Of a DNA stretch of 64,000 nucleotides, positions 11,557 through 41,077 are shown piece by piece. Made by a program: the position numbers and the translations under genes. The notes below the pieces were generated by a model that was not told the origin of the DNA, ran no database searches, and saw only the letters and a program-made list of their open reading frames with translations. The number at the start of each line of letters is the position of its first letter. Positions within the stretch are counted from its first letter, which is position 1. Source of the stretch: a bacterium (GTDB lineage: Bacteria > UBP4 > UBA4092 > JAOAEQ01); the NCBI GenBank assembly GCA_026416715.1, contig JAOAEQ010000012.1, positions 1 through 64,000 of the forward strand, read 5' to 3'.

Positions 11557-13359
11557 TTACTTTAAATCAATTCTATCATAATTAATTTTTTCTTCTGCAG
11601 TTAATGGCGTGCTCTCTTTAACTATATAAGGGGTGACAAACAACATTAACTCCGACCGTGAAACTGTCGTGCTTTTCGATTTGAATGCATTCCCAAGGAA
11701 GGGGATATCACCTAAAACCGGGATTTTGTTCTCTTTCGTCAGCTCATTATTTTTACGTAACCCGCCGATAACTACCGTTTCTCCATCCTTAACCAGCAAG
11801 GTAGCATCTGCTTTCCGTTCATCCACGATAGCGATAACTGTATTCGGTGCACCGCCAGCTGATGGATACGAAATTTCGCCTTGTTTTGATTTCTGAACTG
11901 GAACAATATGCATCAGGATATTCCCATCATCGGTAATCTGCGGAGTAACCGTTAAGGTTACACCTTCTTTTGTTTTCTCATCGAAATTAACGTTTCCAAC
12001 ATAAGTATTGGTTTGTGCATCGTATGACCATTGAACATACGGATTCTGCCGGGTAATATTAATTTCAGCAGTAGTATTATTTAACGCAAGGATACGTGGG
12101 TTGGCTAATACTTCAGCGGATTTATTTTCAACCGCTGCTTTCAGTGTCGCGTTAATATCCCACGTTGGCGTTGAAATTGACCCGATAACAATTCCGCCCG
12201 CTAACGCTCCGGCTTGTCCCAAGGTTTGTCCACCAATTGAATAAGTTCCATCATCAATAATACTTGATTTTGTTGCATCCCAACTAATCCCAAGGTCTTT
12301 GATTTTATCTAAATCGAGATTGATTAACCGCGCTTCAATCATCACCTGCTTAATCGGTTTATCCAATTTTTTAATTAACGCTTTTGCTTTAGCAACATCT
12401 TGCGGGCTTCCACTAATTACAATAACCCCGGTTCCAGTGATAATTTTTGCATTATTATCGAGCCATTCAACAATATTAACTCGCGGATATACCGATTTTA
12501 TTACTGCAATTACATCACTGGTCTTTTTATAATTTAAGGTAACCTGTTCCACGATTTCTTCTACCGCAGGCGGCGGTGCTACAACCGGTTTATCAATTTT
12601 AACGATTCGAAGTACATTAGGACTTGGTTTTTCGAATGTAAATCCATGTACCGCTAGGATAGTATCCAGCGCTTCTTTCACAGTAACATTCTCGAGGTGA
12701 ATGGATACTTTCCCAGCTACTTCAGGTCCGGCAACGATATTTAATCCGGATTTATCTGCTAAGATACGAATCACACTAGGTAATTCCGCGCCGCTAAAAT
12801 CGAGCGAAACAATTGCATCTAATCCGGTTGGTGCTGGTTTTACTTCAACCGCCGGTGGTAGAACCGCTGGTTTCGGTTCAACTGCAGGTGGCGCTGCAAC
12901 TTTTTCCGCTCCTGGTACCGATGGTACCGACTTTGCTTTCTTTCCGCTCGCAGCGGGCGGTTCTACTCCCGTATTATCGATACAAATGACTAGCGTTTTC
13001 TCTTCTTGTTTAATATCAAATGGAACCCATTTGCTTAACATTATCACCGCACGAACAACTTTCGGCTCCGATTGATATTGCGCAACGACGACTTTGGTTG
13101 CTGCACTTTCTTCAATTGGCATCGAATATTTTGCCGCGCCAGTTAATACAGCATCTGTAATATCAAGATACACCAGATGATTATATTTGTTACTGGTATA
13201 TGTAATGGATTCTCCAATGAATGGGATTGAAATATACGTTTTCCCTGATTCATGTTTTACTGCAGGTTTAGCAATTTTAATCTCAGCATATACCTGCGAT
13301 AATATCATTATCACCATTAAACTAACGATACCTACGTATTTCAGATTTTTTCTTATCAT
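11557..13359 (-). CDS. pilQ: type IV pilus secretin
   Basis: Outer-membrane secretin through which the type IV pilus leaves the cell. After a signal peptide (about 1-25) there is a degenerate AMIN-like beta domain (27-130), a Pro/Ala/Lys linker (131-180), a secretin/TonB short N-terminal domain (about 184-252: VSLDFSGAELPSVIRILADKS), an N1/NolW-type domain (270-335), and the conserved secretin domain (about 340-585) with the VPVLGDIPFLGNAF-type signature (here KIPVLGDIPFLG) and ELMLFVTPYIV. 600 residues, shorter than most PilQ because only one AMIN-like region is present. Last gene of pilMNOPQ. Confidence 0.93.
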   Translation of the reverse strand: MIRKNLKYVGIVSLMVIMILSQVYAEIKIAKPAVKHESGKTYISIPFIGESITYTSNKYNHLVYLDITDAVLTGAAKYSMPIEESAATKVVVAQYQSEPKVVRAVIMLSKWVPFDIKQEEKTLVICIDNTGVEPPAASGKKAKSVPSVPGAEKVAAPPAVEPKPAVLPPAVEVKPAPTGLDAIVSLDFSGAELPSVIRILADKSGLNIVAGPEVAGKVSIHLENVTVKEALDTILAVHGFTFEKPSPNVLRIVKIDKPVVAPPPAVEEIVEQVTLNYKKTSDVIAVIKSVYPRVNIVEWLDNNAKIITGTGVIVISGSPQDVAKAKALIKKLDKPIKQVMIEARLINLDLDKIKDLGISWDATKSSIIDDGTYSIGGQTLGQAGALAGGIVIGSISTPTWDINATLKAAVENKSAEVLANPRILALNNTTAEINITRQNPYVQWSYDAQTNTYVGNVNFDEKTKEGVTLTVTPQITDDGNILMHIVPVQKSKQGEISYPSAGGAPNTVIAIVDERKADATLLVKDGETVVIGGLRKNNELTKENKIPVLGDIPFLGNAFKSKSTTVSRSELMLFVTPYIVKESTPLTAEEKINYDRIDLK

Positions 13360-13433
13360 AGATAATCCCCCTTGTTTGAATTCCTTCTTTAAAGAGTAAT
13401 AGTTAAATGTTAATCAATGCCTTTATGTATGGA

Positions 13434-13934
13434 TTAACTATTCACTTTTACTTTAACCGGGAATTTTTTCCCAGCGTAAAGGAATATAACCTCCCCTTTA
13501 TTAATTTTTAAAATTTTAGCATGCGCGACTTCATCTCCTTCTCGCACAATTTTATCCCCAATTAATGCTAACGGTTCTTTAGGACACCAAACGATACCGG
13601 TTACCTGTCTTTCAATTTCTTCTGGAAGAGTAGCGGGTTCTAAATCAGTTCCTTTAACCCCTCCTTTAACCCCGCTAGACGACGGAGTTCCGGATTCTTC
13701 GATAAATTTCCATGGCATCAGCATCGGGTCATCTTTTCCTTTACTATCATAAATATGCTTCTTCTGAAAGGTAACCGTACTCTTTTCAGTAGCGCTGGCA
13801 ATTATCTCGAGTGGTGACGGCTCTTTTGCCGTCGTATCCTTACTACTTGCAGACTTATCTGCCGAAAAACTAAAACTCACAACGGATATGCTAAAAAAAC
13901 ATATAAGAATAGAACTAACGAGGAGTTTTTTCAT
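13434..13934 (-). CDS. pilP: type IV pilus inner-membrane/periplasmic protein PilP-like
   Basis: 166 residues with a signal peptide (1-25). The C-terminal half folds like the PilP homology domain (TGIVWCPKEPLALIGDKI, then GEVIFLYAGKKFPVKV), which contacts PilQ. There is no lipobox cysteine, so it is probably periplasmic rather than a lipoprotein. The Shine-Dalgarno AAGGAGG lies within the last codons of pilO. Identification rests mainly on position between pilO and pilQ and the small beta domain. Confidence 0.75.
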   Translation of the reverse strand: MKKLLVSSILICFFSISVVSFSFSADKSASSKDTTAKEPSPLEIIASATEKSTVTFQKKHIYDSKGKDDPMLMPWKFIEESGTPSSSGVKGGVKGTDLEPATLPEEIERQVTGIVWCPKEPLALIGDKIVREGDEVAHAKILKINKGEVIFLYAGKKFPVKVKVNS

Positions 13935-13945
13935 AATTTAATCTT

Positions 13946-14512
13946 CTATCCTCCTTGATTGAACATATAGGTACTGATTTTCATTGTTGCTTCGTGTAAA
14001 TGAGTTTCATCATTAGTCGCTTTAATATCCACATCATCGACGCGCATAAATCGTTCGTTATTTTCCATTTTATTAATAAACTGACCAAGGGGATGGTATT
14101 TCGCTTTCACGGTAACATTAAATGGTATCTGAATGAAATATTCACTGGTTACCGACGCTAATTGGGTGATAGCAACGAATTTTGTTCCGCTTTCATCAGC
14201 TGCTTGTCGGAAAAAGGTCAACAGTTTGGGAATATCTTTCGTTTCCGGTAATCGCTGTTCAAACAAATTGATTTTTGAAGTTAACTCCGCTATTTTCATC
14301 TGGGTTTCTGTTCCTTCAACAATTTCTTTGTATTTTTCGTACACTTTTTTCAGCGCTTTATCATCCGGCGGACCGTTAATTTCTCGTTCTAATTGCGCTA
14401 TTCGTTTCGTATTCACACTCCAAACAAAAGTATAAAACAAATAGCCAATTAATGCCATGAAAATAATTGCGACTAAAATCCATTTTTTTTCATCAGCCGT
14501 TAATGGTGTCAT
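13946..14512 (-). CDS. pilO: type IV pilus alignment protein PilO
   Basis: 188 residues: a short cytoplasmic start, one transmembrane helix (about 12-32), a coiled coil (35-85), then a ferredoxin-like periplasmic domain typical of PilO. It pairs with PilN and PilP to connect the PilM ring to the secretin. The start is set at ATG 14512, after GAGGG; the frame is open six codons further but without a start context. Confidence 0.85.
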   Translation of the reverse strand: MTPLTADEKKWILVAIIFMALIGYLFYTFVWSVNTKRIAQLEREINGPPDDKALKKVYEKYKEIVEGTETQMKIAELTSKINLFEQRLPETKDIPKLLTFFRQAADESGTKFVAITQLASVTSEYFIQIPFNVTVKAKYHPLGQFINKMENNERFMRVDDVDIKATNDETHLHEATMKISTYMFNQGG

Positions 14513-14547
14513 AGTCTTTCCCTCAATCAATGTGTATTATGGTTAAC

Positions 14548-15141
14548 CTAAATAACTTGCATTTTTAAAATAAATTTTGCTAAGAGATATCCGCCTTTCT
14601 TTTCGGTATTAGCTGAAATAAACTCGATTTCACCGAAATTAGGACTATTATCTTCTTTATAATAAAACGAACTTCGACTCTTATCCTGTAATGCGGTGAT
14701 AAAATCGCCGATCAGTTTGATTCGTTCTTCACCGGAACGGCAGGCGGTCATTCCTTCAAGATTAAGGATTATATTGCCAGTTTCATCGGTAGTTAAATAG
14801 ATATGTTCAAGTTTAACATTGGTGGGGATTAAATCCGATAGTTCATTCAATTTCTTAGACCAATATAACCGTTGCATACCGGCTAAATCATCAATCGCTT
14901 TTTCTTTCCGCTGGAGTTGCTCGATTAACGCAGCGATTTCTTTTACTTTCGGTTCCAGTTCTTTTATTTGCCGTTCTAGTTCCGCTTTCTGATTCTCTAA
15001 CTTCGTAACCCTAACTTTAGAATACAGATAAAAAGGAAGGATAATAATGATCGTAACCAGTGCAGCAAGTAAAAAAATTAGCGGAACGCGATTGACCTTT
15101 TTTGCTTTAACGGTAACGGGAAGTAAGTTGATTTTTATCAT
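14548..15141 (-). CDS. pilN: type IV pilus assembly protein PilN
   Basis: 197 residues. The extreme N-terminus MIKINLLP is the conserved PilM-binding peptide of PilN. A single transmembrane helix (about 22-43), a coiled coil rich in Lys/Glu (44-80) and a periplasmic fimbrial-assembly (Fimb_PilN) domain follow. It lies between pilM (43-base gap) and pilO. Confidence 0.9.
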   Translation of the reverse strand: MIKINLLPVTVKAKKVNRVPLIFLLAALVTIIIILPFYLYSKVRVTKLENQKAELERQIKELEPKVKEIAALIEQLQRKEKAIDDLAGMQRLYWSKKLNELSDLIPTNVKLEHIYLTTDETGNIILNLEGMTACRSGEERIKLIGDFITALQDKSRSSFYYKEDNSPNFGEIEFISANTEKKGGYLLAKFILKMQVI

Positions 15142-15184
15142 AGGTTTTTCTTACCCTCTCTTGCTTCCTAGAATAGTTCAAAAA

Positions 15185-16342
15185 TTAGCTACTCTGCCGA
15201 ATAGCTAATCCAACACCGACGGCTAAACTCGGAGCTAATGCATTTAATTCATTATTCCCTATAGCCACTTTAGTTGTATTAATTTTCGCTAACGGATTGA
15301 ATATTTCTGTTGGAAGCCCTAATCGGTCTTGAATAAACGAATCGATATTTTTTAATTTCGCGCTTCCACCACTTAATACAATCCGATTAACCGGTTTACC
15401 ATAGGGCTGGTGCTCAAAAAATTGTAATGTTCGCCGAATTTCCGTCACCAAGTTCTGTAAGGGAACCCGAATGATATCGGAAATTTGTCGAACACGTTGG
15501 TCTGCGCTTAAACTTTCACCAGTGATCTTTTCTACGGTTTCCCGAATCGCTACCTTAATATCACTCGATTCTTCTTTCCCTTCACTTGCCGCTGCCGGTA
15601 AAATGACTCCTTCTTCTTTTTTAATTTTTTCCGCATCCGCGAAACTTATACCCATTTTGCTAGCCAATTGTTGGGTTATATTATTCCCCGCTTGGGAAAT
15701 ATCACGCGCAAATACCGAAATATTATTCTGGGCAATAATAATATTTGTACTTTGTGCGCCGATATTGACCAGTGCGATTACTTCATCCTGTTTAGCGTCA
15801 TAGTTCGCTTCAAAACAATTAAATACCGCAAACGCATCAACATCAATAACCGCCGTGTTCAATCCTATTGATTGCAAGAGATTAATCCGTTCATTGACAA
15901 AATCTTTCCGCGCGGCTACTAACAGAACATCAATTTTCTTACTTCCTTCCTTTTGTGAAACACCGAGTTTATGATAATCGAGATTAATATCATCAAGTCG
16001 ATAAGGAATATGTTCTTCTATCTGCCAGCGGATGGCATTATCTAATTCGGTATCCGTCATTTCCGGAAACGAAATATAGCGGACGATAACTGCTTCCCCA
16101 GAAATGGAAGTAATGACATCTTTCAACCGAGAACCGGAGTTGAGAATAGCTGTTCGAATAGTATTAGCGAGACCAATTGAAGTAGTATCCGTTTTCGCTT
16201 GAGAAACTTCAACCGGAACATCTGCTACACCAACATGTTCGAGAATATATCCTTGTTTGGTAGATTTAATTTGAATAGCTTTCACCAGACTGCTTCCTAT
16301 ATCTAAGGCGAGAAGTGATTTAGTTTTTGATAATAGTGCCAC
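15185..16342 (-). CDS. pilM: type IV pilus actin-like ATPase PilM
   Basis: 385 residues with the actin/FtsA fold. The first phosphate loop LALDIGSSLVKAIQI (about 10-24) and the adenosine motif region LSGGSAKLKN (about 325-334) are visible. PilM forms the cytoplasmic ring that holds the N-terminal peptide of PilN. Starts with GTG, preceded by AAAGGATG. First gene of the operon, with its own promoter at 16431-16459. Confidence 0.93.
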   Translation of the reverse strand: MALLSKTKSLLALDIGSSLVKAIQIKSTKQGYILEHVGVADVPVEVSQAKTDTTSIGLANTIRTAILNSGSRLKDVITSISGEAVIVRYISFPEMTDTELDNAIRWQIEEHIPYRLDDINLDYHKLGVSQKEGSKKIDVLLVAARKDFVNERINLLQSIGLNTAVIDVDAFAVFNCFEANYDAKQDEVIALVNIGAQSTNIIIAQNNISVFARDISQAGNNITQQLASKMGISFADAEKIKKEEGVILPAAASEGKEESSDIKVAIRETVEKITGESLSADQRVRQISDIIRVPLQNLVTEIRRTLQFFEHQPYGKPVNRIVLSGGSAKLKNIDSFIQDRLGLPTEIFNPLAKINTTKVAIGNNELNALAPSLAVGVGLAIRQSS

Positions 16343-31734: not shown

Positions 31735-32340
31735 CTAATATCCTCCGTAAATTGGTCCCGTTTGTGGTTCTGCACTTTTTTGAGCTCGCCAAATATTTCC
31801 TGGACTCACGGTTCCATTTGAAGGGTCATATTGCACTGTAGCGGGTGTTAGGGATGTACTATATACTGCATCTGGTCCGATAGAACACATACGCCAATCT
31901 CCATAAATATCCCAAGCTACTTTCCAATATTGACTTGTTGGAAATTCGGTAATATAGTTTTTAACATTGTGATACGTATAAATTTCTTCATCCTGCGTTT
32001 GTCCGTAACGCGCAAATGGGTCTTTAAAAGCAACATTAGAGATATAGGCTATTGGTGTACTTAATTCTGGCGGCAAAATGCCAATCGGTTGATTCGGATA
32101 TAGTTGAAATGACGGTCGAGGCCATCGACCGGTAGTCATCGGATATACTGTGTTATCTACATTATAAGATTCAATTGCTGTCGTTACAGTCTGCAATTCC
32201 TTTTTAACACGCGATACTTTCGACCGGGTTTGCGCTGCGAGAAAGTTCGGAATCGCAATTGCAGCGAGGATAGCGATAATCGCTACGACGATTAACAACT
32301 CAATTAAAGTAAACCCATGATATGATTTTTTTACCATCAT
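31735..32340 (-). CDS. type II/IV pseudopilin (GspG/PilA-like)
   Basis: About 201 residues. A short basic leader ends in HG and is followed by FTLIELLIVVAIIAIL, the prepilin-peptidase site and hydrophobic spine of type IV pilin-like proteins. The C-terminal globular part has the 'IAYIS ... DPF', 'SIGPDA' and 'DPSNGTVSPGNIWR' segments seen in long pseudopilins of many uncultured phyla. GAGGTGA lies at 32346-32352. Several ATGs are in tandem (32343, 32340, 32337); 32340 gives the best spacing. A prepilin peptidase is not in the window. Its closest relative here is the frameshifted pilin at 40434-41028. Confidence 0.9.
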   Translation of the reverse strand: MMVKKSYHGFTLIELLIVVAIIAILAAIAIPNFLAAQTRSKVSRVKKELQTVTTAIESYNVDNTVYPMTTGRWPRPSFQLYPNQPIGILPPELSTPIAYISNVAFKDPFARYGQTQDEEIYTYHNVKNYITEFPTSQYWKVAWDIYGDWRMCSIGPDAVYSTSLTPATVQYDPSNGTVSPGNIWRAQKSAEPQTGPIYGGY

Positions 32341-32515
32341 CATTTTCACCTCACTTTCTTTTTTTGTTTCTCTAAAACTAAAACAATATATGTGAGAAAT
32401 AATCTTTATGGTTTAGCTAATATGAACAAAATATCCCGACATTCTGACTATAACTCGGTAAAAATCAGCTGCTAACTCCGTACAAGAATATTTTTCGATA
32501 ATTTTCTAAAGTATG

Positions 32516-32648: not shown

Positions 32649-34337
32649 TTATTCATTTAGTTCAAACCGTGCATCTTTGCGTTCAATCGCATCAATAAAT
32701 AGTGGCGCTGAGGTTGCAATAACATTTATGGTAACTGTTTTCTGTTGTACCGGCGGTCCAGGATCACTTACGGTCAAATCAACACTTCCAACATTTACGG
32801 CGGTAAAGGTTACGGTTGAACCAGCAGTCGTATTAATCGAACCAACAGTACTATTACTTAATGACCAGCTGAAGTTGTTCGTTCCACCGCTTGCCGAGAA
32901 ATCTTTAGTTTTCCCCGGATTGATGATTATTGGACCAACAGGAGTTAATTGCAACGGTAATGCGCCAGTATATCGAGCACCACCCGCTAATGGAACGCCA
33001 CCAGAACCAGCAGTACAATACGCGAAGTTGGTTACATTCAAGAAATTCGGATTGGTTGAATCTAACGAAGCGAATTGCGGGTCTAGATTAATTACGTTAG
33101 TCAAATTTGTGATTCCCGAACCTTCAACTCCATCAATACTACCTGTTGCCAACGTATAACTTAATCCACCAACTAACACCAACGCACTGTTACTGATATT
33201 TGAGGTATTGGAATTATTCAGATATACATTTACCCCGATATTATCGCTTCCATTACCCGCAAAGATACAATCGGTTACTGTGATAGTACTCGTCAGATTA
33301 CCGGCTTGAACTTCTATCGGGCTCTGCCCGTTATTGTAGAACGTAACTTTATTAATCGTTAACGGCGTATTATGTCCAACGCTGGTATCCGCTAGCTGGA
33401 TACCATCGGTTCCATTATTGGCAATAATGCAATTGGAAACATTGTATAATCCAATACCACCGGGAGTAGCTGAACCGAGCGTAGCGATTCCTGGACCTAC
33501 ATTATTAGCGATAATCGCCTGGTCGATACTGCCCTGTCCGTTAAACAGATAACATCCACCATAGGTAGCAGATTTATTGCCAATAATTTTAACTCTACTT
33601 TCAGGGGTTCCAGCGATAGTAATATTTGCGGAAGCAGCACTGAACTGTACTCCCATACGGTTATTATACGAAATAACACAGCCGGGACCGATGGTAAGAA
33701 TTCGACCGCAAACGATTCCATCGTTCAAACCAGCATTGCGGTGATTGCTGAATATGGTACTAACCATACTTACCGCAACATAACTCGCTGCTGCACCACT
33801 TGTAATAAACATACCATCATCACCGAACGGAGTTTTCCCCGTTAAATCAATTTCTGTTAAACCATCTAACGTAACCGGATTATTCGTTCCATCGTTTGGC
33901 GTAACAACTAACCCTTCCATAATAACATTGAGCGTTTGCACGGTCGCCCCTGGATTGATGAGAATCCCATCATCAGCTGGTGGTGTCGTTAATGAAGGGA
34001 TAACATTCAAGTTACGTAATACCACGGTACCCGAGAATCCAGTAATAACCAGTCCGTCATCACCTGCAGATGGACTCGCAGCGTTCTGCTGTACGCAAAC
34101 ATTCGGTCGTACGCCATATCCTTCTATGGTCAACGGTTTATCAACAGTAATCACTTCATCATACGGGCCAACTCCGATGATGCGAATAGTATCACCAGCT
34201 ACTGAAGCAGTAATTGCAGCGGAAATGGTCGTAAAATCCGCACCGCCAGCAGAGTTAACGGTTCGAATAGCGGCAAGTGCAGTAAACGGTAATACTAGGA
34301 TAAGAGGAATCAAAAATATACAATATTTTTTATTCAT
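32649..34337 (-). CDS. exported beta-helix protein A with Ig-like domain and APLF/RFEL tail
   Basis: 562 residues. After a signal peptide (1-22) there is a right-handed parallel beta-helix (about 24-440), with repeated short strands and Asn/Gly turns (IANNGTDGIQLAD, CIIANN). An Ig-like domain (about 455-540) carries FSASGG, the W in FSWSLSN, and GSVDLTVSDPGPP. The last 20 residues read TSAPLFIDAIERKDARFELN-E, the tail shared by four consecutive genes here. The Shine-Dalgarno AAAGGAGGTGA (34344-34354) is a perfect anti-16S match. Surface adhesin or polysaccharide-binding roles are possible; none is shown. Confidence 0.75.
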   Translation of the reverse strand: MNKKYCIFLIPLILVLPFTALAAIRTVNSAGGADFTTISAAITASVAGDTIRIIGVGPYDEVITVDKPLTIEGYGVRPNVCVQQNAASPSAGDDGLVITGFSGTVVLRNLNVIPSLTTPPADDGILINPGATVQTLNVIMEGLVVTPNDGTNNPVTLDGLTEIDLTGKTPFGDDGMFITSGAAASYVAVSMVSTIFSNHRNAGLNDGIVCGRILTIGPGCVISYNNRMGVQFSAASANITIAGTPESRVKIIGNKSATYGGCYLFNGQGSIDQAIIANNVGPGIATLGSATPGGIGLYNVSNCIIANNGTDGIQLADTSVGHNTPLTINKVTFYNNGQSPIEVQAGNLTSTITVTDCIFAGNGSDNIGVNVYLNNSNTSNISNSALVLVGGLSYTLATGSIDGVEGSGITNLTNVINLDPQFASLDSTNPNFLNVTNFAYCTAGSGGVPLAGGARYTGALPLQLTPVGPIIINPGKTKDFSASGGTNNFSWSLSNSTVGSINTTAGSTVTFTAVNVGSVDLTVSDPGPPVQQKTVTINVIATSAPLFIDAIERKDARFELNE

Positions 34338-34390
34338 ACCATTTCACCTCCTTTCTGGATAACATAACTCTCCATTTTACACCTGAATAT

Positions 34391-34419
34391 ACTATAGCAG
34401 GTCGAAATAAAAATGTCAA
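34391..34419 (-). promoter_or_regulatory. sigma-70 promoter of exported protein A
   Basis: Minus strand: TTGACA (34414-34419), 17-base spacer, TATAGT (34391-34396). It lies between the terminator of gene B and the very strong Shine-Dalgarno of gene A, so A is its own transcription unit. Confidence 0.8.
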
Positions 34420-34421
34420 AT

Positions 34422-34464
34422 AAAAAAAGCGGAGTAAATGCTTTTTTTCGCATTAACTCCGCTT
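34422..34464 (-). terminator. intrinsic terminator of exported protein B
   Basis: Minus-strand stem with arms AAGCGGAGT-AATGC / GCATT-ACTCCGCTT (34427-34464), followed by a T run (34422-34428). Confidence 0.85.
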
Positions 34465-34504
34465 AATTTTTAATATCAAATTTCAACAACCCTTTTTATT
34501 CCGA

Positions 34505-36469
34505 TCATTCCGCTTGTTCTATGCTACTTCGTTTATTCTCGACTGCTTCAATAAATAACGGAGCAGTCGTTGGAATAACTGAAACCGGGATCGTAAACTT
34601 TTTCGGTGTCGGAGTTGTCGAATCGGTTACTGTAATCGATCCGTATGCAGTTGAATCCGTCGGTGTAAATTGTACTATTGCTCCGGTGTTCACATCTAAA
34701 GTCCCAATTCCGCCATTAACTACCCAATAATAATCCGGAGTCCCGCCAAACGCGTTAATCGTTATCGCCGGGTCACCTGGTCGAGTAACAATACTTGCCG
34801 GCGTGGTATATAGTGGTGGAATCGGTTCATCGCAACCTTTCCACGGCGTGGATATACTACGCTGGTTCCCATCAATATCAGTCGTAATCGGAAATGGGCT
34901 GGTGATTGGGATGCCGGGAGCTAACGGACTTGCATTGACGCCAGTGAAATGTAAATCCGTCTCTGAAACCCATTTATTCGGACTGGTTGCGAATGGGTCA
35001 ACATCCTGACTATTGATATCTACACCAGTAACCGTCGTCCAGTTAGATAACGTTAATTGATTCACACCAAACCAGCGACCGGTCGTTGCACCGGCAGCAG
35101 TATCTGCATATAAATCATTATAATCGCATTCAAGCATTCCTGGAGTCGCAGAGTCTAGTCCATAGATACTGATACATGCAGCGCCAACCTGCGCTTGTCG
35201 GATAATATTGTTTTTTATGCGAACCGTTGTTACCCCGGAAATAAGCGCATTCGCATTGTTTGCAACCAATCCTTGATAATTTGGATTTCCTGCCATATTG
35301 ATTGAATTATGGTAAATGTTGCAAGTGTTATTCCCGACCGCATAGATACCTCGGTAAATTACATTACTAGTATTGACTGTAGTTCCACCAAGAGCGAATC
35401 CGGTGAGCATATTATTGAATACATTATATGTTCCACCAGAGTTACGCAAATCTAGCCCACCTATTCCATACGCTGCGCCACCGTGTGTATTCCCACTATA
35501 GAGTTTATCCAGCACATTATTGTAAATATCCATAGTCCAGCCAGAAGCACCGTTAGCACTAAAGTGCCAAATCCCAGCACTATACCAACCAGTTGAAAGT
35601 TGGTTAACTCGAACGGTATTGCCCGCAATAGTTGCATTCGCTACGCCATTCAAAAATATCCCACGGGTTCTCGCTTCGATAAGATTGTTTCTAAATTCCA
35701 TTCCGGATGCGCAGGTGCCAGTAGGTAACGGGAAACCCGCAGCGGTACTGAAACCAACCGTAATTCCGTGACCGGAAACGCTACTCGTGCAAACGATATA
35801 ACAGTTTAATACTTTTCCATTATCCGGAATTAAACCAACGGTTGCATTCGTAGTCATACGAGAAGTAAACTGAATAGCATGTGGCGAAGCCGCACTCGCA
35901 CGCGTTCGATTTATAATATTACAATTCTTAATAGTAATATTATCGCAGTCACCGACGATGCGGAAAATCTGCGCGTATGTTATGGTGGTATCTTGGTTAA
36001 TAAAGGTTAGGTCACGGGTATTGGTTCCATTATTCGAACCATCAATAATGATATTATCAGTTTTAACTAAATCATCTAAACCAGCTCCGGAAGTTGTTGA
36101 CCTACATCCAATATAAATATGTCCTGAATATCCAGGGTTATCAATAGTCTGAGTAATATTAATAGTTGCAGTCACGCCGGCAGCCGGTTTAATCAAGACG
36201 GTATTAGAACCAACGGTGTTAGCAAAAATAATCGTATATGGCGGTTCGATAGTATCACTGAGAATTTCGACAGTCCAGTTTCCGGTATTTGCAGTGGTAG
36301 TGAAATCTAACGCTGCTTCATACAGGGTAGCGTAATCGCCACCGGTTCCGACTGTTGAGAGTCCCTGACCGGACGGTGGATCGCTATATTTTTTCGCGTT
36401 CCCAGCGGTAATCATTAAACACCAACTCATTGTTATCACAACGATTAAATACATTATTTTTTTATTCAT
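34505..36469 (-). CDS. exported beta-helix protein B with Ig-like domain and APLF tail
   Basis: 654 residues. Signal peptide (1-25), then a long parallel beta-helix region (about 40-530) with PbH1-like turns (IIIDGSNNG, NITIKNCNII, GIFLNGVANATIAGN, NIYHNSINMAG). An Ig-like domain follows (about 550-635: NAFGGTPDYYWVVNGG, TVTDSTTP), then the tail TTAPLFIEAVENKRSSIEQ. The tail keeps APLF and the charged helix but its end (SIEQAE) has diverged from the RFEL of the other three. AAAGGAGA precedes the ATG. A second, orphan Shine-Dalgarno lies further up (36518-36530). Confidence 0.75.
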   Translation of the reverse strand: MNKKIMYLIVVITMSWCLMITAGNAKKYSDPPSGQGLSTVGTGGDYATLYEAALDFTTTANTGNWTVEILSDTIEPPYTIIFANTVGSNTVLIKPAAGVTATINITQTIDNPGYSGHIYIGCRSTTSGAGLDDLVKTDNIIIDGSNNGTNTRDLTFINQDTTITYAQIFRIVGDCDNITIKNCNIINRTRASAASPHAIQFTSRMTTNATVGLIPDNGKVLNCYIVCTSSVSGHGITVGFSTAAGFPLPTGTCASGMEFRNNLIEARTRGIFLNGVANATIAGNTVRVNQLSTGWYSAGIWHFSANGASGWTMDIYNNVLDKLYSGNTHGGAAYGIGGLDLRNSGGTYNVFNNMLTGFALGGTTVNTSNVIYRGIYAVGNNTCNIYHNSINMAGNPNYQGLVANNANALISGVTTVRIKNNIIRQAQVGAACISIYGLDSATPGMLECDYNDLYADTAAGATTGRWFGVNQLTLSNWTTVTGVDINSQDVDPFATSPNKWVSETDLHFTGVNASPLAPGIPITSPFPITTDIDGNQRSISTPWKGCDEPIPPLYTTPASIVTRPGDPAITINAFGGTPDYYWVVNGGIGTLDVNTGAIVQFTPTDSTAYGSITVTDSTTPTPKKFTIPVSVIPTTAPLFIEAVENKRSSIEQAE

Positions 36470-36626
36470 AGATTTTCTCCTTTCTTAAAAGTTTATATTT
36501 GTAGTAAAGAAAAAAATTTCACCTCCTTCCGATTAACCATAGCGGTTCAACAAAACATAGTTTGTTATAAAGTTCATCTATTAAATTATAAGTTTACATT
36601 ACAATCCTAATATTCTGCAACGAAAA

Positions 36627-36657
36627 ACGGAGAATTTCATAAACCGAAATTCTCCGT
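36627..36657 (-). terminator. intrinsic terminator of exported protein C
   Basis: Twelve-base perfect arms ACGGAGAATTTC / GAAATTCTCCGT (36627-36657), with TTTTTCG following on the minus strand. Confidence 0.8.
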
Positions 36658-36690
36658 TATCCTCCATACCCAAATTCACCTTACACTGCT

Positions 36691-38439
36691 CTAGTCTAAC
36701 AGTTCGAATCGGATATTATCCTTCCGCAATTCGCGTTCGTTGAATAACGGTGCGCCGGTTGGGAGAACCGTAATCGAAATGATTATCTGCTGCGGGGTCG
36801 GCGTCCGTGAATCAGCGACGGTTAAATCAACTGAACCACCGGCTATCGCAGTAAAGGTTACGACTGCACCTTCCGTAGTATCGAGTGAACCAACGCCAGT
36901 CGTACTTAACGACCAAGTATATGGCGGTTTACCACCACTTGCAGTAAACTGTTTATTCTGGCCGACTGATATCGTTATCGGACTGACTGGGGTTACTGCA
37001 AATACCACCCCGTTATCTATCGTATATCCCGCTACTGTCGTAAACGAATTCGGTCCATCCGGTGGCGAATAGATACGCAATACTTCGTTGATGTTACAGG
37101 CGAGATAAATATTTCCTGCGGCATCACAATCCGGTCCTCGGGGAGCAGCGGTACCGTAAGGTCCATTCCATTTAACAATCGTAGTTACCGAACTCAAATT
37201 ACCAACAGGTAATGGGAGCGGAACTACAACGAATCCACCTGTATCAATGTTTGTACTCGCTCCAACAATTAACCGATTATGTGCTTCGTCAAGAATGAAC
37301 CCACCACGGCAATCACGGAGTGGGTCAGGCGTGGTTCCGCCATTTCCGGTAGAAATCGAATCCCAGTAGATTGATTGGCCATTAGGGCTAAATACGACAA
37401 TTGACGGACAATCTGTTCCCGCAGAACGATAATTCGCTACATACCATCTTCCGGCGCTATCTCGACGTATTGTTCCCGGAGCATCATTAATCAAAATACC
37501 GCCGCTCGTCCCAGGTGGCGTAGTAAAATTCGCATCATCAATAACTACAGTTGGTGCACCAGTCCACGGGAAAGGTCCGTTTCCAATATTATATTTCCAA
37601 ATACTTCTAGCGCGTGGTTCAGTATTGTCAGGATAATCTTCATCTTGAGTATATAGAACCGTATTCGTGCCGGTTCCTTCCACCCAGACACCAGCAACAC
37701 TTCCGTGAATATTTGGTACTAATCCTGACGGTGTTCGACCGGTATTATCAAGGATTTCGACCCAAGAACCAGATAAATCCGCTTCTGCTCGCCATACTCC
37801 GGAATGGGCATCTGACCAATCTGCAATCCAGAGTTTGTCATCCGGACCAACAAACAGATGATAGGGACTATTTGCGCTAAGACCCCAGTTTACATTGCCG
37901 GTGCGAGTAGTATTGAGCGCTCCAATCGGGTCGGATAAGTCAGGATAGAATCCATAAACACCGTCATAACATGGTTTACCACCATAGGTAGTCCCGTTTC
38001 TTCCGTTAGCAAGATAAATCATCCCGAAATATGGACTTCCGTTGTTCTTATTTACTGCTACCCCGCGTGGATATTCAAAATGTAGCGTGGTATTCGCATC
38101 GTTCGTTAACAGATCCCAGCTTGAATGACCGACATTATCTACTGCATGAACTTTAACTCCGAACGTTCCGGTAGGCAAGAGACCTCCGTTTGCCCACGCC
38201 CAGGTAACAGTATTTGCGCCGAAATTGGTTGTTCCTGGTAACGATTGAACAATCGTTGTTGAAGGCAATGGTCCATAAATTTGGACGGTTACTGCACTGC
38301 AGGTTTCGTTTAACCGGTAAACAATTTCCAGGTTACCGCCAGTAGTACTGATAGTTATCCCAAACGGCATAACATTCGCAAATGTACTTCCGGCAATAAT
38401 CGAAAACAGAATGATTGATATAATAATTTGTTTTTTCAT
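36691..38439 (-). CDS. exported beta-propeller-like protein C with Ig-like domain and RFEL tail
   Basis: 582 residues. A signal peptide (1-21) is followed by a FlgD/Ig-like start (about 27-110: VTVQIYGPLP ... GTFGVKVHAVDNVGHSSW), then repeated blades of an NHL/SMP-30-like propeller (RGVAVNKNNGSPYFGMIYLA, DCDAAGNIYLACNINEV). The C-terminal Ig-like domain (about 475-560: FTASGGKPPYTWSLS, GSVDLTVADSRTP) leads into the tail APLFNERELRKDNIRFELLD. AAAGGAGGGAG precedes the ATG and a consensus promoter lies at 38487-38515. The N-terminal FlgD-like part is not shared with its neighbours. Confidence 0.75.
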   Translation of the reverse strand: MKKQIIISIILFSIIAGSTFANVMPFGITISTTGGNLEIVYRLNETCSAVTVQIYGPLPSTTIVQSLPGTTNFGANTVTWAWANGGLLPTGTFGVKVHAVDNVGHSSWDLLTNDANTTLHFEYPRGVAVNKNNGSPYFGMIYLANGRNGTTYGGKPCYDGVYGFYPDLSDPIGALNTTRTGNVNWGLSANSPYHLFVGPDDKLWIADWSDAHSGVWRAEADLSGSWVEILDNTGRTPSGLVPNIHGSVAGVWVEGTGTNTVLYTQDEDYPDNTEPRARSIWKYNIGNGPFPWTGAPTVVIDDANFTTPPGTSGGILINDAPGTIRRDSAGRWYVANYRSAGTDCPSIVVFSPNGQSIYWDSISTGNGGTTPDPLRDCRGGFILDEAHNRLIVGASTNIDTGGFVVVPLPLPVGNLSSVTTIVKWNGPYGTAAPRGPDCDAAGNIYLACNINEVLRIYSPPDGPNSFTTVAGYTIDNGVVFAVTPVSPITISVGQNKQFTASGGKPPYTWSLSTTGVGSLDTTEGAVVTFTAIAGGSVDLTVADSRTPTPQQIIISITVLPTGAPLFNERELRKDNIRFELLD

Positions 38440-38486
38440 TAGTTATATCTCCCTCCTTTCGTGATTTAGATAAAATTTCTATTTAT

Positions 38487-38515
38487 AGTTTACACTTTAT
38501 ACCTAATTTTGTCAA
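38487..38515 (-). promoter_or_regulatory. sigma-70 promoter of exported protein C
   Basis: Minus strand: TTGACA (38510-38515), 17-base spacer beginning AAATTAGG, TAAACT (38487-38492). Almost the same sequence forms the promoter of gene D. Confidence 0.8.
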
Positions 38516-38526
38516 TCTTTTTTATT

Positions 38527-38567
38527 AAAAAAAAGCGGAGAAACTGGTTATTACCAATTTCTCCGCT
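38527..38567 (-). terminator. intrinsic terminator of exported protein D
   Basis: Fifteen-base arms AGCGGAGAAACTGGT / ACCAATTTCTCCGCT (38534-38567, one mismatch), followed by a T run on the minus strand. Confidence 0.85.
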
Positions 38568-38597
38568 ACATTACTATCTGGATACCATCGGTTGCTT

Positions 38598-40316
38598 TTA
38601 ATCAAACAACTCGAATCGGATATATCTTTTCGATTCAGCTTCTTTAAACAACGGGGCAGATGTTGGAACGACGGTAATAGTAACTGTTTTCTGTTGTGCT
38701 GGAGGGCCTGGGTCGCTCACCGTTAAGTCAACCGATCCTGACCCTGTTGCCGTGAACGTTACCGTGGCACCAGTTGTCGAACTAAGGTAACCTACAGTAT
38801 CATTACTCAATGCCCAGGTGAAGTTACCAGTTCCGCCACTAGCCGTGAAATTCTTTGTTCCGCCAGGATTCATCAGCTGAGGAATAGAAGGATTCAATGT
38901 TAACGGATCTGTACCAGATACACTAACAATAACAGTATCGGTGTCATTATACGCGTCAGCTACGGTTATACTAGCTGAACCAGACAATAGCGCTTGAACA
39001 ATTGCAGAATTACCTCCGTAGCTAATCACTTGCGCAACTGCTGGGTTACTGCTAGTCCAAATATAAGGACCGGTTCCGTTACTCACAGTATAAATTGCTG
39101 TTGAACTTGAACCTAAAGCAGTTGGTCCACTTGCTGACGGTAGCGTGTAGATAACCTCGCTATAAAACACCGCTGAACTTAAACCGTATCCATCAGTACC
39201 AAAATCAGGATTATTCGTATTTCTGGTGCTCGTAAATGGTAAATTGCATCGCCCGCCGATAAGATATACTCGTTGCTGTTTATTGACAGTAGCAATCACC
39301 GCAGGGCTATAATAATATCCCGTAGTAGAACTCCCGATAGCCATTAACCCATCGATAGTAAAGGTACCAATGTCGCCAGAGGGTGAAATCGGGGCGCGGT
39401 ATATAGTCGGCTGAGCAAAAGCACCGCTTCCAGTGTTTCGTCTCCCGCCAATTAAAAAAACATCATGCTTAGAATATGCAACAGCACCACCATAAATTCC
39501 CCACATGATTAAGGGCAATGTATCTGTTGACCATGGTTGCAATGTTCCGTCAGGATTAATGGTGGTTTTATAAATATTATTATGTGAACCGGTACCTGAA
39601 CTACCGGTAGTCAGTCCACCGAAAGTATAGAGTTTGTTCTGCACAGCGATAGCGGCATTAAACCACATTCCAGCTGGAATATTGGCAACTTCCGTCCAAG
39701 GACTCAACGCGCCGGTTGCTGGATTGACCACCGACATAAATACTTTTGGAGTTCGAGAACCGTCATCCGCCTGACCGGAAACAGCATAAACATAGGTTGT
39801 TCCGTTGATAGTTGCATACGTTGCGGGGCCCCAGAGTCCACCGGTACCTATCCCAGTTGGAAACGGAGAACGAACTCCCCAACTAGTGATATTACCACCA
39901 GGTTCAATTTTACCCCATAGTGAATCCCCGTTATTAGCGCCATTGGCGTTACCTACGTTCCAACCACCACCAATACGATACACATAGCCATTGGCTTCAA
40001 AACATGAGAATTCAATATATGCAGCTAATGGATATGTTCCAGGGTCATTACTCGGCACAGGAAAAGCTGTAGCTTGTGACCATGGGCCGACACTACCATC
40101 CGAATTAACTGGTGCATAAAAAACATTATACATATCACCTAGTGCTACGCTATTCCCACCAAGAACATAGGCATAACCACTTGGACCCATAACCAATCCG
40201 TGCATTTGGGTAGGATACGGTAGATAACCAGTGGTGTGTCGTGTAAAAGTTATAGCAAACCCTGATACACTTATGAGACATAACATTACTGTAAATACTA
40301 AAATCTTTTTGCTCAT
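38598..40316 (-). CDS. exported Kelch-like protein D with Ig-like domains and RFEL tail
   Basis: 572 residues. Signal peptide (1-21), then about six Kelch/galactose-oxidase-like propeller blades (about 35-365), with recurring GGxxxxGxxxxxxxxxxxxDG(S/T)xxPW patterns (VNSDGSVGPWSQ, INPDGTLQPWS, LIGGRRNTGSG). A small Big2-like region (about 390-465: SASITVADAYNDTDTVIVSV) comes next, then the common Ig-like domain (470-550) and the tail SAPLFKEAESKRYIRFELFD. AAAGGAGGGAA precedes the ATG. First and best-matched member of the four-gene run. Confidence 0.75.
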   Translation of the reverse strand: MSKKILVFTVMLCLISVSGFAITFTRHTTGYLPYPTQMHGLVMGPSGYAYVLGGNSVALGDMYNVFYAPVNSDGSVGPWSQATAFPVPSNDPGTYPLAAYIEFSCFEANGYVYRIGGGWNVGNANGANNGDSLWGKIEPGGNITSWGVRSPFPTGIGTGGLWGPATYATINGTTYVYAVSGQADDGSRTPKVFMSVVNPATGALSPWTEVANIPAGMWFNAAIAVQNKLYTFGGLTTGSSGTGSHNNIYKTTINPDGTLQPWSTDTLPLIMWGIYGGAVAYSKHDVFLIGGRRNTGSGAFAQPTIYRAPISPSGDIGTFTIDGLMAIGSSTTGYYYSPAVIATVNKQQRVYLIGGRCNLPFTSTRNTNNPDFGTDGYGLSSAVFYSEVIYTLPSASGPTALGSSSTAIYTVSNGTGPYIWTSSNPAVAQVISYGGNSAIVQALLSGSASITVADAYNDTDTVIVSVSGTDPLTLNPSIPQLMNPGGTKNFTASGGTGNFTWALSNDTVGYLSSTTGATVTFTATGSGSVDLTVSDPGPPAQQKTVTITVVPTSAPLFKEAESKRYIRFELFD

Positions 40317-40433: not shown

Positions 40434-41028
40434 TTAATATCCTGCAGGAGCTGGTGGTTCACCCCATCGGTCAGGATACTTGCCAACTGGTCCTAGTCGT
40501 AATATATCGCCGTTACTGACGGTGCCATTCGTCGGGTCATAAAATTCCCAAGCATAATCCTGTTTCAAATCCGGTCCGGCACTACTTAATCGCCATGCCC
40601 GCTGATATAATCCCGGTGCCCAGCTAAATCCACGGTCACGTTGGGTTTGTTCATCGCAATAATCGTAGGTATCATACACATCGGCACCGTATGGTCCGCC
40701 GACTTCTCGTTGTGGAACAAACGGGTCTGGTTTCGGGATTTTGGTAATATACGCAACCGGCGTGGTTAAACAGTTGAGTCGTTTTGAAACTGGAATATTC
40801 GAATTGGGGTATCCATGGAATATACCACATCGGATACTGGTTCGCATCGGTATAATAAGCTTCGAGTGCTGTTCCGATTGTTCGCATTTCTCCTTTTGCA
40901 CGGGAGACTTTCGCGCGCACCTGTGCTGCGAGAAAATTCGGGATAGCGATTGCCGCAAGTATCGCAATAATCGCAACGACAATTAATAATTCAATTAACG
41001 TAAATCCATAACTTTTATTTTTTTGCAT
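40434..41028 (-). pseudogene. pseudopilin gene with a +1 frameshift at a C run
   Basis: The ATG at 41028 (GAGGTGA at 41036-41042) begins a pilin leader with YGFTLIELLIVVAIIAIL, like the intact pilin at 31735. After about residue 73 (YIPWIP) that frame turns to nonsense. The +1 frame continues as NSNIPVSKRLNCLTTPVAYI ... DPTNGTVSNGDI ... APAGY and stops at 40434. Removing one base from the four C (GGGG on the plus strand, 40806-40809) restores about 197 residues, the expected length. It could be a sequencing slip, a real mutation, a phase switch, or a CCC-C programmed +1 site. Both halves are well conserved. Confidence 0.8.
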
Positions 41029-41077
41029 TTTATCTTCACCTCGCATTGTTTATTTTTTATGGAATGTTTGATATGTA

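Follow-up and report, generated by a model that had tools for sequence, protein, structure and literature searches.

A stretch of 64,000 nucleotides of contig JAOAEQ010000012.1, from a bacterium of the phylum UBP4 (hereafter the window), contains four adjacent minus-strand open reading frames (ORFs) at 32649-34337, 34505-36469, 36691-38439 and 38598-40316, the positions given in an initial annotation of this DNA. The four encoded proteins, numbered 1-4 in this order, differ in their N-terminal parts, and all four end with an immunoglobulin (Ig)-like domain and a tail of 21-22 residues. A Sec-type signal peptide can be recognized by sequence at every N-terminus (one of the four was scored explicitly). 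The ORFs, the alignment of the C-termini and the signal peptides together confirm what the annotation had described, namely four consecutive exported proteins with a common Ig-like domain and tail. The features of these genes, with the evidence for each, are as follows.

32649..34337, minus strand: exported protein 1 (562 residues), with signal peptide, putative β-helix, Ig-like domain and tail (ORF; hidden Markov model (HMM) of Ig plus tail, E=2.3e-52)
32652..32714, minus strand: C-terminal tail TSAPLFIDAIERKDARFELNE-stop of protein 1 (alignment, tail comparison, tail-only HMM)
32715..32954, minus strand: Ig-like domain of protein 1, approximate limits (alignment to the modelled domain)
34505..36469, minus strand: exported protein 2 (654 residues), with a β-helix-type passenger (KKYSDPP...), Ig-like domain and tail (ORF, homolog comparison)
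34508..34570, minus strand: C-terminal tail TTAPLFIEAVENKRSSIEQAE-stop of protein 2, the most divergent of the four (tail comparison, tail-only HMM)
36691..38439, minus strand: exported protein 3 (582 residues), with a FlgD-like/NHL-like start, Ig-like domain and tail (ORF, Pfam hints, UBA6127 ortholog)
36694..36759, minus strand: C-terminal tail TGAPLFNERELRKDNIRFELLD-stop of protein 3 (tail comparison, tail-only HMM)
38598..40316, minus strand: exported protein 4 (572 residues), with a Kelch propeller, a Big_2-like stretch, a terminal Ig-like domain and tail (ORF, Pfam)
38664..38909, minus strand: terminal Ig-like domain of protein 4, eight predicted strands, predicted local distance difference test (pLDDT) score 93-98 (AlphaFold2, fold and profile comparison)
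38601..38663, minus strand: C-terminal tail TSAPLFKEAESKRYIRFELFD-stop of protein 4, predicted unstructured, pLDDT about 55 (tail comparison, tail-only HMM, AlphaFold2)

The folds that the annotation had proposed for the differing N-terminal parts held up unevenly. The Kelch assignment of protein 4 is supported by Pfam (Kelch_2, E=4e-6); the FlgD_ig and NHL assignments of protein 3 are sub-threshold Pfam hints only, and Pfam gives no significant match for the β-helices of proteins 1 and 2. A low-confidence structure model of a homolog of the β-helix passenger does show repeated strands.

Conservation and predicted structure of the tail

Across the last ~110 residues of the four window proteins, 22 alignment columns are invariant, including G-G, W39, G47 and T-x-APLF. 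The tails alone are 48-58% identical and have the general form TSAPLF...RFELFD over ~21 residues. Our UBP4 sample comprised two genomes from different families, the window's own (G000) and UBA6127 (G001). When 20 Ig-plus-tail segments from both were aligned, W39, D73, T90, A92 and P93 were invariant and the end was conserved. The conserved core lies at the extreme C-terminus, in the last ~5 residues, with a consensus of roughly W/F-x-L-[F/Y/M]-E-COOH.

An AlphaFold2 model based on the 20-sequence alignment has an eight-stranded Ig-like domain at residues 8-87, with pLDDT of 93-98 over most blocks, and leaves tail residues 90-110 without secondary structure at a pLDDT of about 55. By fold and profile this is an ordinary domain of the intimin/Lig/Big_2 type, although the known domains of that type lack the APLF...ELFE tail of the window proteins. 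The annotation had allowed that the tail could be simply the last strand of the Ig-like domain; this is ruled out by the model, in which the tail lies outside the Ig fold, and by the carriers without an Ig-like domain described below.

Distribution of the tail in two UBP4 genomes

An HMM of Ig plus tail located about 15 further places on other contigs of the window's genome, and a tail-only HMM located C15:73659-73739 (E=5.7e-7), C3:45547-45627 (E=1.2e-6) and several weaker matches. In translation, these off-array copies end TSAPLFLDRDSSYYSRKELFE, TSAPLFTDVMETKETRFEIFE, ...GWELFE, ...GELFE, ...GELYE, ...TWELFEE and others. UBA6127 contains the same Ig-plus-tail construction with shorter tails (PTSAPLARDWALME, PTSAPLARDWSLME, APIIREDWAILE, NAPLARQSIYELFE and SAPVFKDLFE). 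Local duplication confined to the tandem array, the other outcome that the annotation had named as a refutation, is ruled out by the off-contig matches and the UBA6127 endings; the searches returned many unrelated exported passengers with the tail at the extreme C-terminus, a pattern that it had named as support for a sorting tag, and the phenomenon is larger than it had described.

The Ig-like domain proved dispensable. In UBA6127, the ortholog of protein 3, which is 54% identical over 486 residues, wholly lacks it and ends TSKEWMLYE. Because this ortholog and other carriers end in the motif without an Ig-like domain, their sequences indicate that the domain is optional and not part of the putative tag, whose conserved part is the last ~5 residues. 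A whole-genome search for EL[F/Y][E/D]-stop gave 17 matches, seven of them in ORFs of at least 266 residues; all seven look exported-type (one has its N-terminus cut by a contig end), and two, a subtilase ending SWFELYE and a protein at C16:8052 ending HWELYE, have neither APLF nor Ig. For W-x-[L/I/M/F]-x-E-stop, both UBP4 genomes together gave 33 matches, of which 16 are true gene ends, with about 0.5 expected from composition at an estimated 5,800 genes. Fourteen of the 16 are exported-type or Ig-bearing; the remaining two, which end WTLNE and WVIIE, are apparently cytoplasmic proteins that match by chance. Searching the DNA for APLF alone was uninformative (73 matches vs 121 in the reversed control).

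Two atypical loci were also seen. L048:3543-3869 (on G000:C15) is a 108-residue Ig-plus-tail fragment that has no signal peptide and may be the end of a disrupted gene, and an Ig-plus-tail protein in UBA6127 (L101, G001:C62:11907-13697) extends about 20 residues beyond DWELME; the tail is thus not always terminal.

A second tail form and a second phylum

Four homologs of protein 2 align up to the same point (...DIDGN.RS..PW.GCDE). Past that point, two of the four continue into Ig and APLF...E, and two into VPVELSRFETETY or VPVELSGFMTE and then stop. On this one β-helix passenger family, the alignments indicate, a VPVELS tail replaces the Ig-like domain and its tail, and the two forms are interchangeable. 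A codon pattern for PVELxxF matched 21 and 32 times in the two UBP4 genomes vs 5 and 3 times in the reversed control; 22 of the 30 loci inspected lie in long ORFs with the motif at most 34 residues from the stop. In the UBA6127 stretches examined, 10 of 16 VPVELS tails are exactly 10 residues long. Some tails look intermediate (MIPFGELYE, FVPLGELFE, VPIAEWIRFEFE), and we therefore have the impression that the two forms may be related. A second structure model, of a 559-residue β-helix protein with a VPVELS tail, drew on only four sequences and is uninformative on that tail (pLDDT about 30 over the last 80 residues). Further array-like families carry this second tail, at L184, where a 1355-residue M6 metalloprotease (L184:9745-13812) ends in it, and at L192 (G001:C43:18297-24245), a tandem array of four paralogs.

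Among 386 genomes, the exact PVELxxFxxE-stop pattern occurs 16 times in G001, once in G000 (in which most tails run on) and eight times in G084, an unrelated GC-rich genome, and it exceeds chance only in UBP4 and in the phylum of G084. Matches in G045 and G396 lie in ORFs of 42 and 10 residues and were rejected as chance. Of 199 genomes from the phylum of G084, which we suspect from gene content to be Acidobacteriota, three have multiple copies (8, 9 and 5) and the rest contribute one chance match. Most tailed ORFs of this second phylum have a visible signal sequence, and their passengers are diverse; VPVELQSFSIE is one of the tail sequences there. The tails therefore occur, by these patterns, in two UBP4 families and, for VPVELS, in a second phylum; the W-x-[L/I/M/F]-x-E-stop pattern was scanned in the two UBP4 genomes, and the second-phylum occurrence concerns the VPVELS form.

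Association with export and range of passengers

Among 391 complete ORFs from the stretches examined, a Sec-like N-terminus is present in 49 of 53 tailed ORFs vs 142 of 338 untailed ones (Fisher p=9e-13, with a crude hydropathy rule); the stretches were chosen partly for holding tails, and this value therefore measures association with signal peptides, not genome-wide frequency. In at least two of the four tailed ORFs without a Sec-like signal, the N-terminus is truncated by the end of a contig or has a wrongly assigned start. The tailed passengers are diverse (S8, GH18, GH5, golvesin/GH26, M64, M6, SBBP, PD40, LamG and LTD), and GH18, GH5, golvesin/GH26, S8 and M64 domain proteins are among the carriers of W-x-L-type tails, which are also seen on proteins described as chitinase-like and cellulase-like. 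The sequences thus present what is generally expected of a C-terminal sorting tag, an extreme C-terminus common to many unrelated Sec-exported proteins.

Domains are called "choice-of-anchor" when different C-terminal anchors can follow them. The curated NCBIfam domain choice-of-anchor Q (NF041518) scores above threshold directly before the tail in one tailed protein of UBP4 (C16:2874-4703) and in one of the second phylum (L218); a domain so named is the part in front of the anchor, however, and the tails themselves are not among the matched curated anchors.

Comparison with known C-terminal tags

None of the tailed proteins that we scanned reached the cut-off of any model of a known C-terminal tag in NCBIfam or Pfam, model sets that we take to include the tail models of the type IX secretion system (T9SS), and a known CTERM, T9SS or LPXTG tag was set aside for lack of any library match. 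TIGR04183, TIGR04131 and Pfam Por_Secre_tail matched neither the window's four proteins nor five further tailed ones at E<=1, and the type IX tail models had no match, at other limits, in about 30 more. A literature search for PVELS strings gave no match, and one for UBP4 gave nothing relevant. The description of the tail as having no transmembrane helix, LPXTG or PEP motif and as matching no known tag was borne out by the sequences and these scans.

The closest parallels are instructive for both likeness and difference. The PEP-CTERM tags of exosortase systems (PMC1569441) are likewise short C-terminal homology regions on many unrelated exported proteins per genome, whereas the UBP4 tails have no PEP motif, transmembrane helix or basic cluster; none of the NCBIfam CTERM models reached its cut-off, although no search was aimed at exosortase. 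GlyGly-CTERM/rhombosortase and MYXO-CTERM/myxosortase (PMC3237569, PMC11980579, PMC13393428) resemble the UBP4 case in having a short independent C-terminal motif after a flexible linker on secreted hydrolases, and differ from it in that the UBP4 tails lack the Gly-Gly or Cys signature and the transmembrane helix. Sortase substrates differ in that the window tails have no LPXTG, transmembrane helix or basic tail.

Pilins and a possible type II/IV connection

The four genes are flanked by pilin-like genes, given here as context only.

31735..32349, minus strand: type IV pilin/T2SSG-like pseudopilin (PF07963, E=9.7e-10)
40434..41046, minus strand: pseudopilin gene in two frames (ORFs 40672-41046 and 40434-40982; PF07963 match at 40942-41019)

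The right-hand pseudopilin has its pilin N-terminus in 40672-41046, and the overlapping ORF 40434-40982 has a YDPTNGTVSNGDI-type C-terminus; the split is either a real frameshift or an assembly error. The initial annotation had taken these neighbors to suggest type II/IV-like export. Tagged genes lie within 3 kb of a pilin in 11 of 43 cases (6.7% expected) in one UBP4 genome and in 6 of 42 (5.5% expected) in the other, or in 6 of 26 and 5 of 27 when clusters are counted, and no such proximity was seen for tailed genes of the second phylum. The enrichment in UBP4 is mild and the link weak, and pilins as obligatory partners were rejected on both counts; involvement of a type II/IV pilus in tail-dependent export is possible.

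Prepilin-type proteins are expanded in these organisms (51 and 54 PF07963 matches in G000 and G001), and many in UBP4 have a common C-terminal signature of their own, YDP[ST]NGTVSxGDIxR. At 11557-16342 the window holds a PilM-PilN-PilO-PilP-PilQ-like operon, from which it follows that the organism has an outer membrane and a machine of the secretin/pilus type.

Discussion

The best explanation for these results, to which we assign a probability of roughly two in three, is that the last 5-10 residues act after Sec as a C-terminal sorting tag for secretion or docking. This reading is well supported by the distribution of the tails. Sec would export the passenger via its N-terminal signal peptide; a putative receptor in the periplasm or at the outer membrane would recognize the exposed flexible C-terminus, in the form W/F-x-L-[F/Y/M]-[E/D]-COOH or VPVELSxFxxE-COOH, and would then secrete the passenger or dock it at the cell surface. 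The Ig-like domain would be a common, dispensable spacer that presents the tail. We infer that the receptor would be a dedicated one, and likewise infer in which direction the passenger would move and whether the tail would be cleaved. The sorting, secretion or anchoring signal of the initial annotation survives here as a module that has moved among many unrelated exported passengers and sits at their extreme C-terminus, without the Ig-like domain as one of its parts.

Several points weigh against this interpretation, in addition to the selection of stretches noted above. The tails are short and degenerate, with protein 2 ending SSIEQAE, and several VPVELS tails in G000 extend 4-20 residues beyond the motif. 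Neither a receptor nor a translocon, sortase or processing enzyme came to light in a sample of two UBP4 genomes, too few for phylogenetic profiling, and the co-occurring peptidase or transport gene that the initial annotation had named as support was not found.

An unlikely alternative is that the tail serves for docking and is not a transport signal: as a C-terminal β-strand it would slot into an Ig/fibronectin-like acceptor carried by a surface scaffold or a pilus, and the passenger would thereby be displayed. Residues alternate in a strand-like way in VPVELSSFSVE, and many Bacteroidota/Ignavibacteria proteins have a fibronectin-like domain that begins with the string LPVELxSFxA. The AlphaFold2 model shows the isolated tail as flexible, and some tagged genes adjoin pseudopilins. 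However, no acceptor domain was identified, and the pilin proximity is weak and not seen in the second phylum.

We consider it rather improbable that the Ig-plus-tail module and the VPVELS tails are inert relics, spread by duplication and domain shuffling, that play no part in sorting. Ig plus tail has clearly moved from gene to gene, the four window genes form a tandem array, and their Ig-like domain is of the ordinary Big_2/intimin type; yet dozens of unrelated proteins in two phyla have kept the tail at exactly the C-terminal position and at the same length, and the Ig-like domain has been lost while the last residues persist.

A divergent type IX C-terminal domain, made up of the Ig-like domain and the last residues, is very improbable despite evident similarities. 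T9SS signals are C-terminal β-sandwich domains with the export signal in their last 22 residues (PMC4804311), and in the window proteins the tail likewise follows an Ig-like domain; the domains of TIGR04183 and TIGR04131 are also C-terminal, lack a transmembrane helix, have an Ig-like fold with key information in the last residues (PMC4804311) and occur on a similar range of Sec-exported enzymes and adhesins. In T9SS cargo, however, the signal resides in the folded β-sandwich, whereas the UBP4 tail comprises 5-10 residues outside the Ig fold, also occurs on many tagged proteins without Ig, and matched none of the NCBIfam or Pfam models searched. SprA (PF14349, SprA_N) had no match in either UBP4 genome, in a search without a positive control, as no control genome matched. 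Equally improbable is an acidic, aromatic cap that merely hinders periplasmic tail-specific proteases, which prefer non-polar ends: most tails do end in E or D, but a cap leaves the PVELxxF and W-x-L-F patterns and the exchange on one passenger unexplained.

As we tentatively suggest, UBP4 and at least one other phylum may secrete proteins across the outer membrane, or dock them at the surface, by a system not yet described. It would pick its cargo by a transmembrane-free C-terminal peptide code, 5-10 residues long, for which either of two interchangeable sequences, W-x-L-[F/Y/M]-E or VPVELSxFxxE, would serve. New sorting machines have been discovered through C-terminal tags before, in the cases of exosortase, rhombosortase, myxosortase and type IX. 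The tails offer a clean phylogenetic-profiling handle for finding a putative receptor. Dozens of proteases, binding proteins and glycoside hydrolases bear them in a phylum known from assembled genomes alone, and the tails, if they are sorting signals, would define the surface and secreted proteome of UBP4 organisms from sequence alone.

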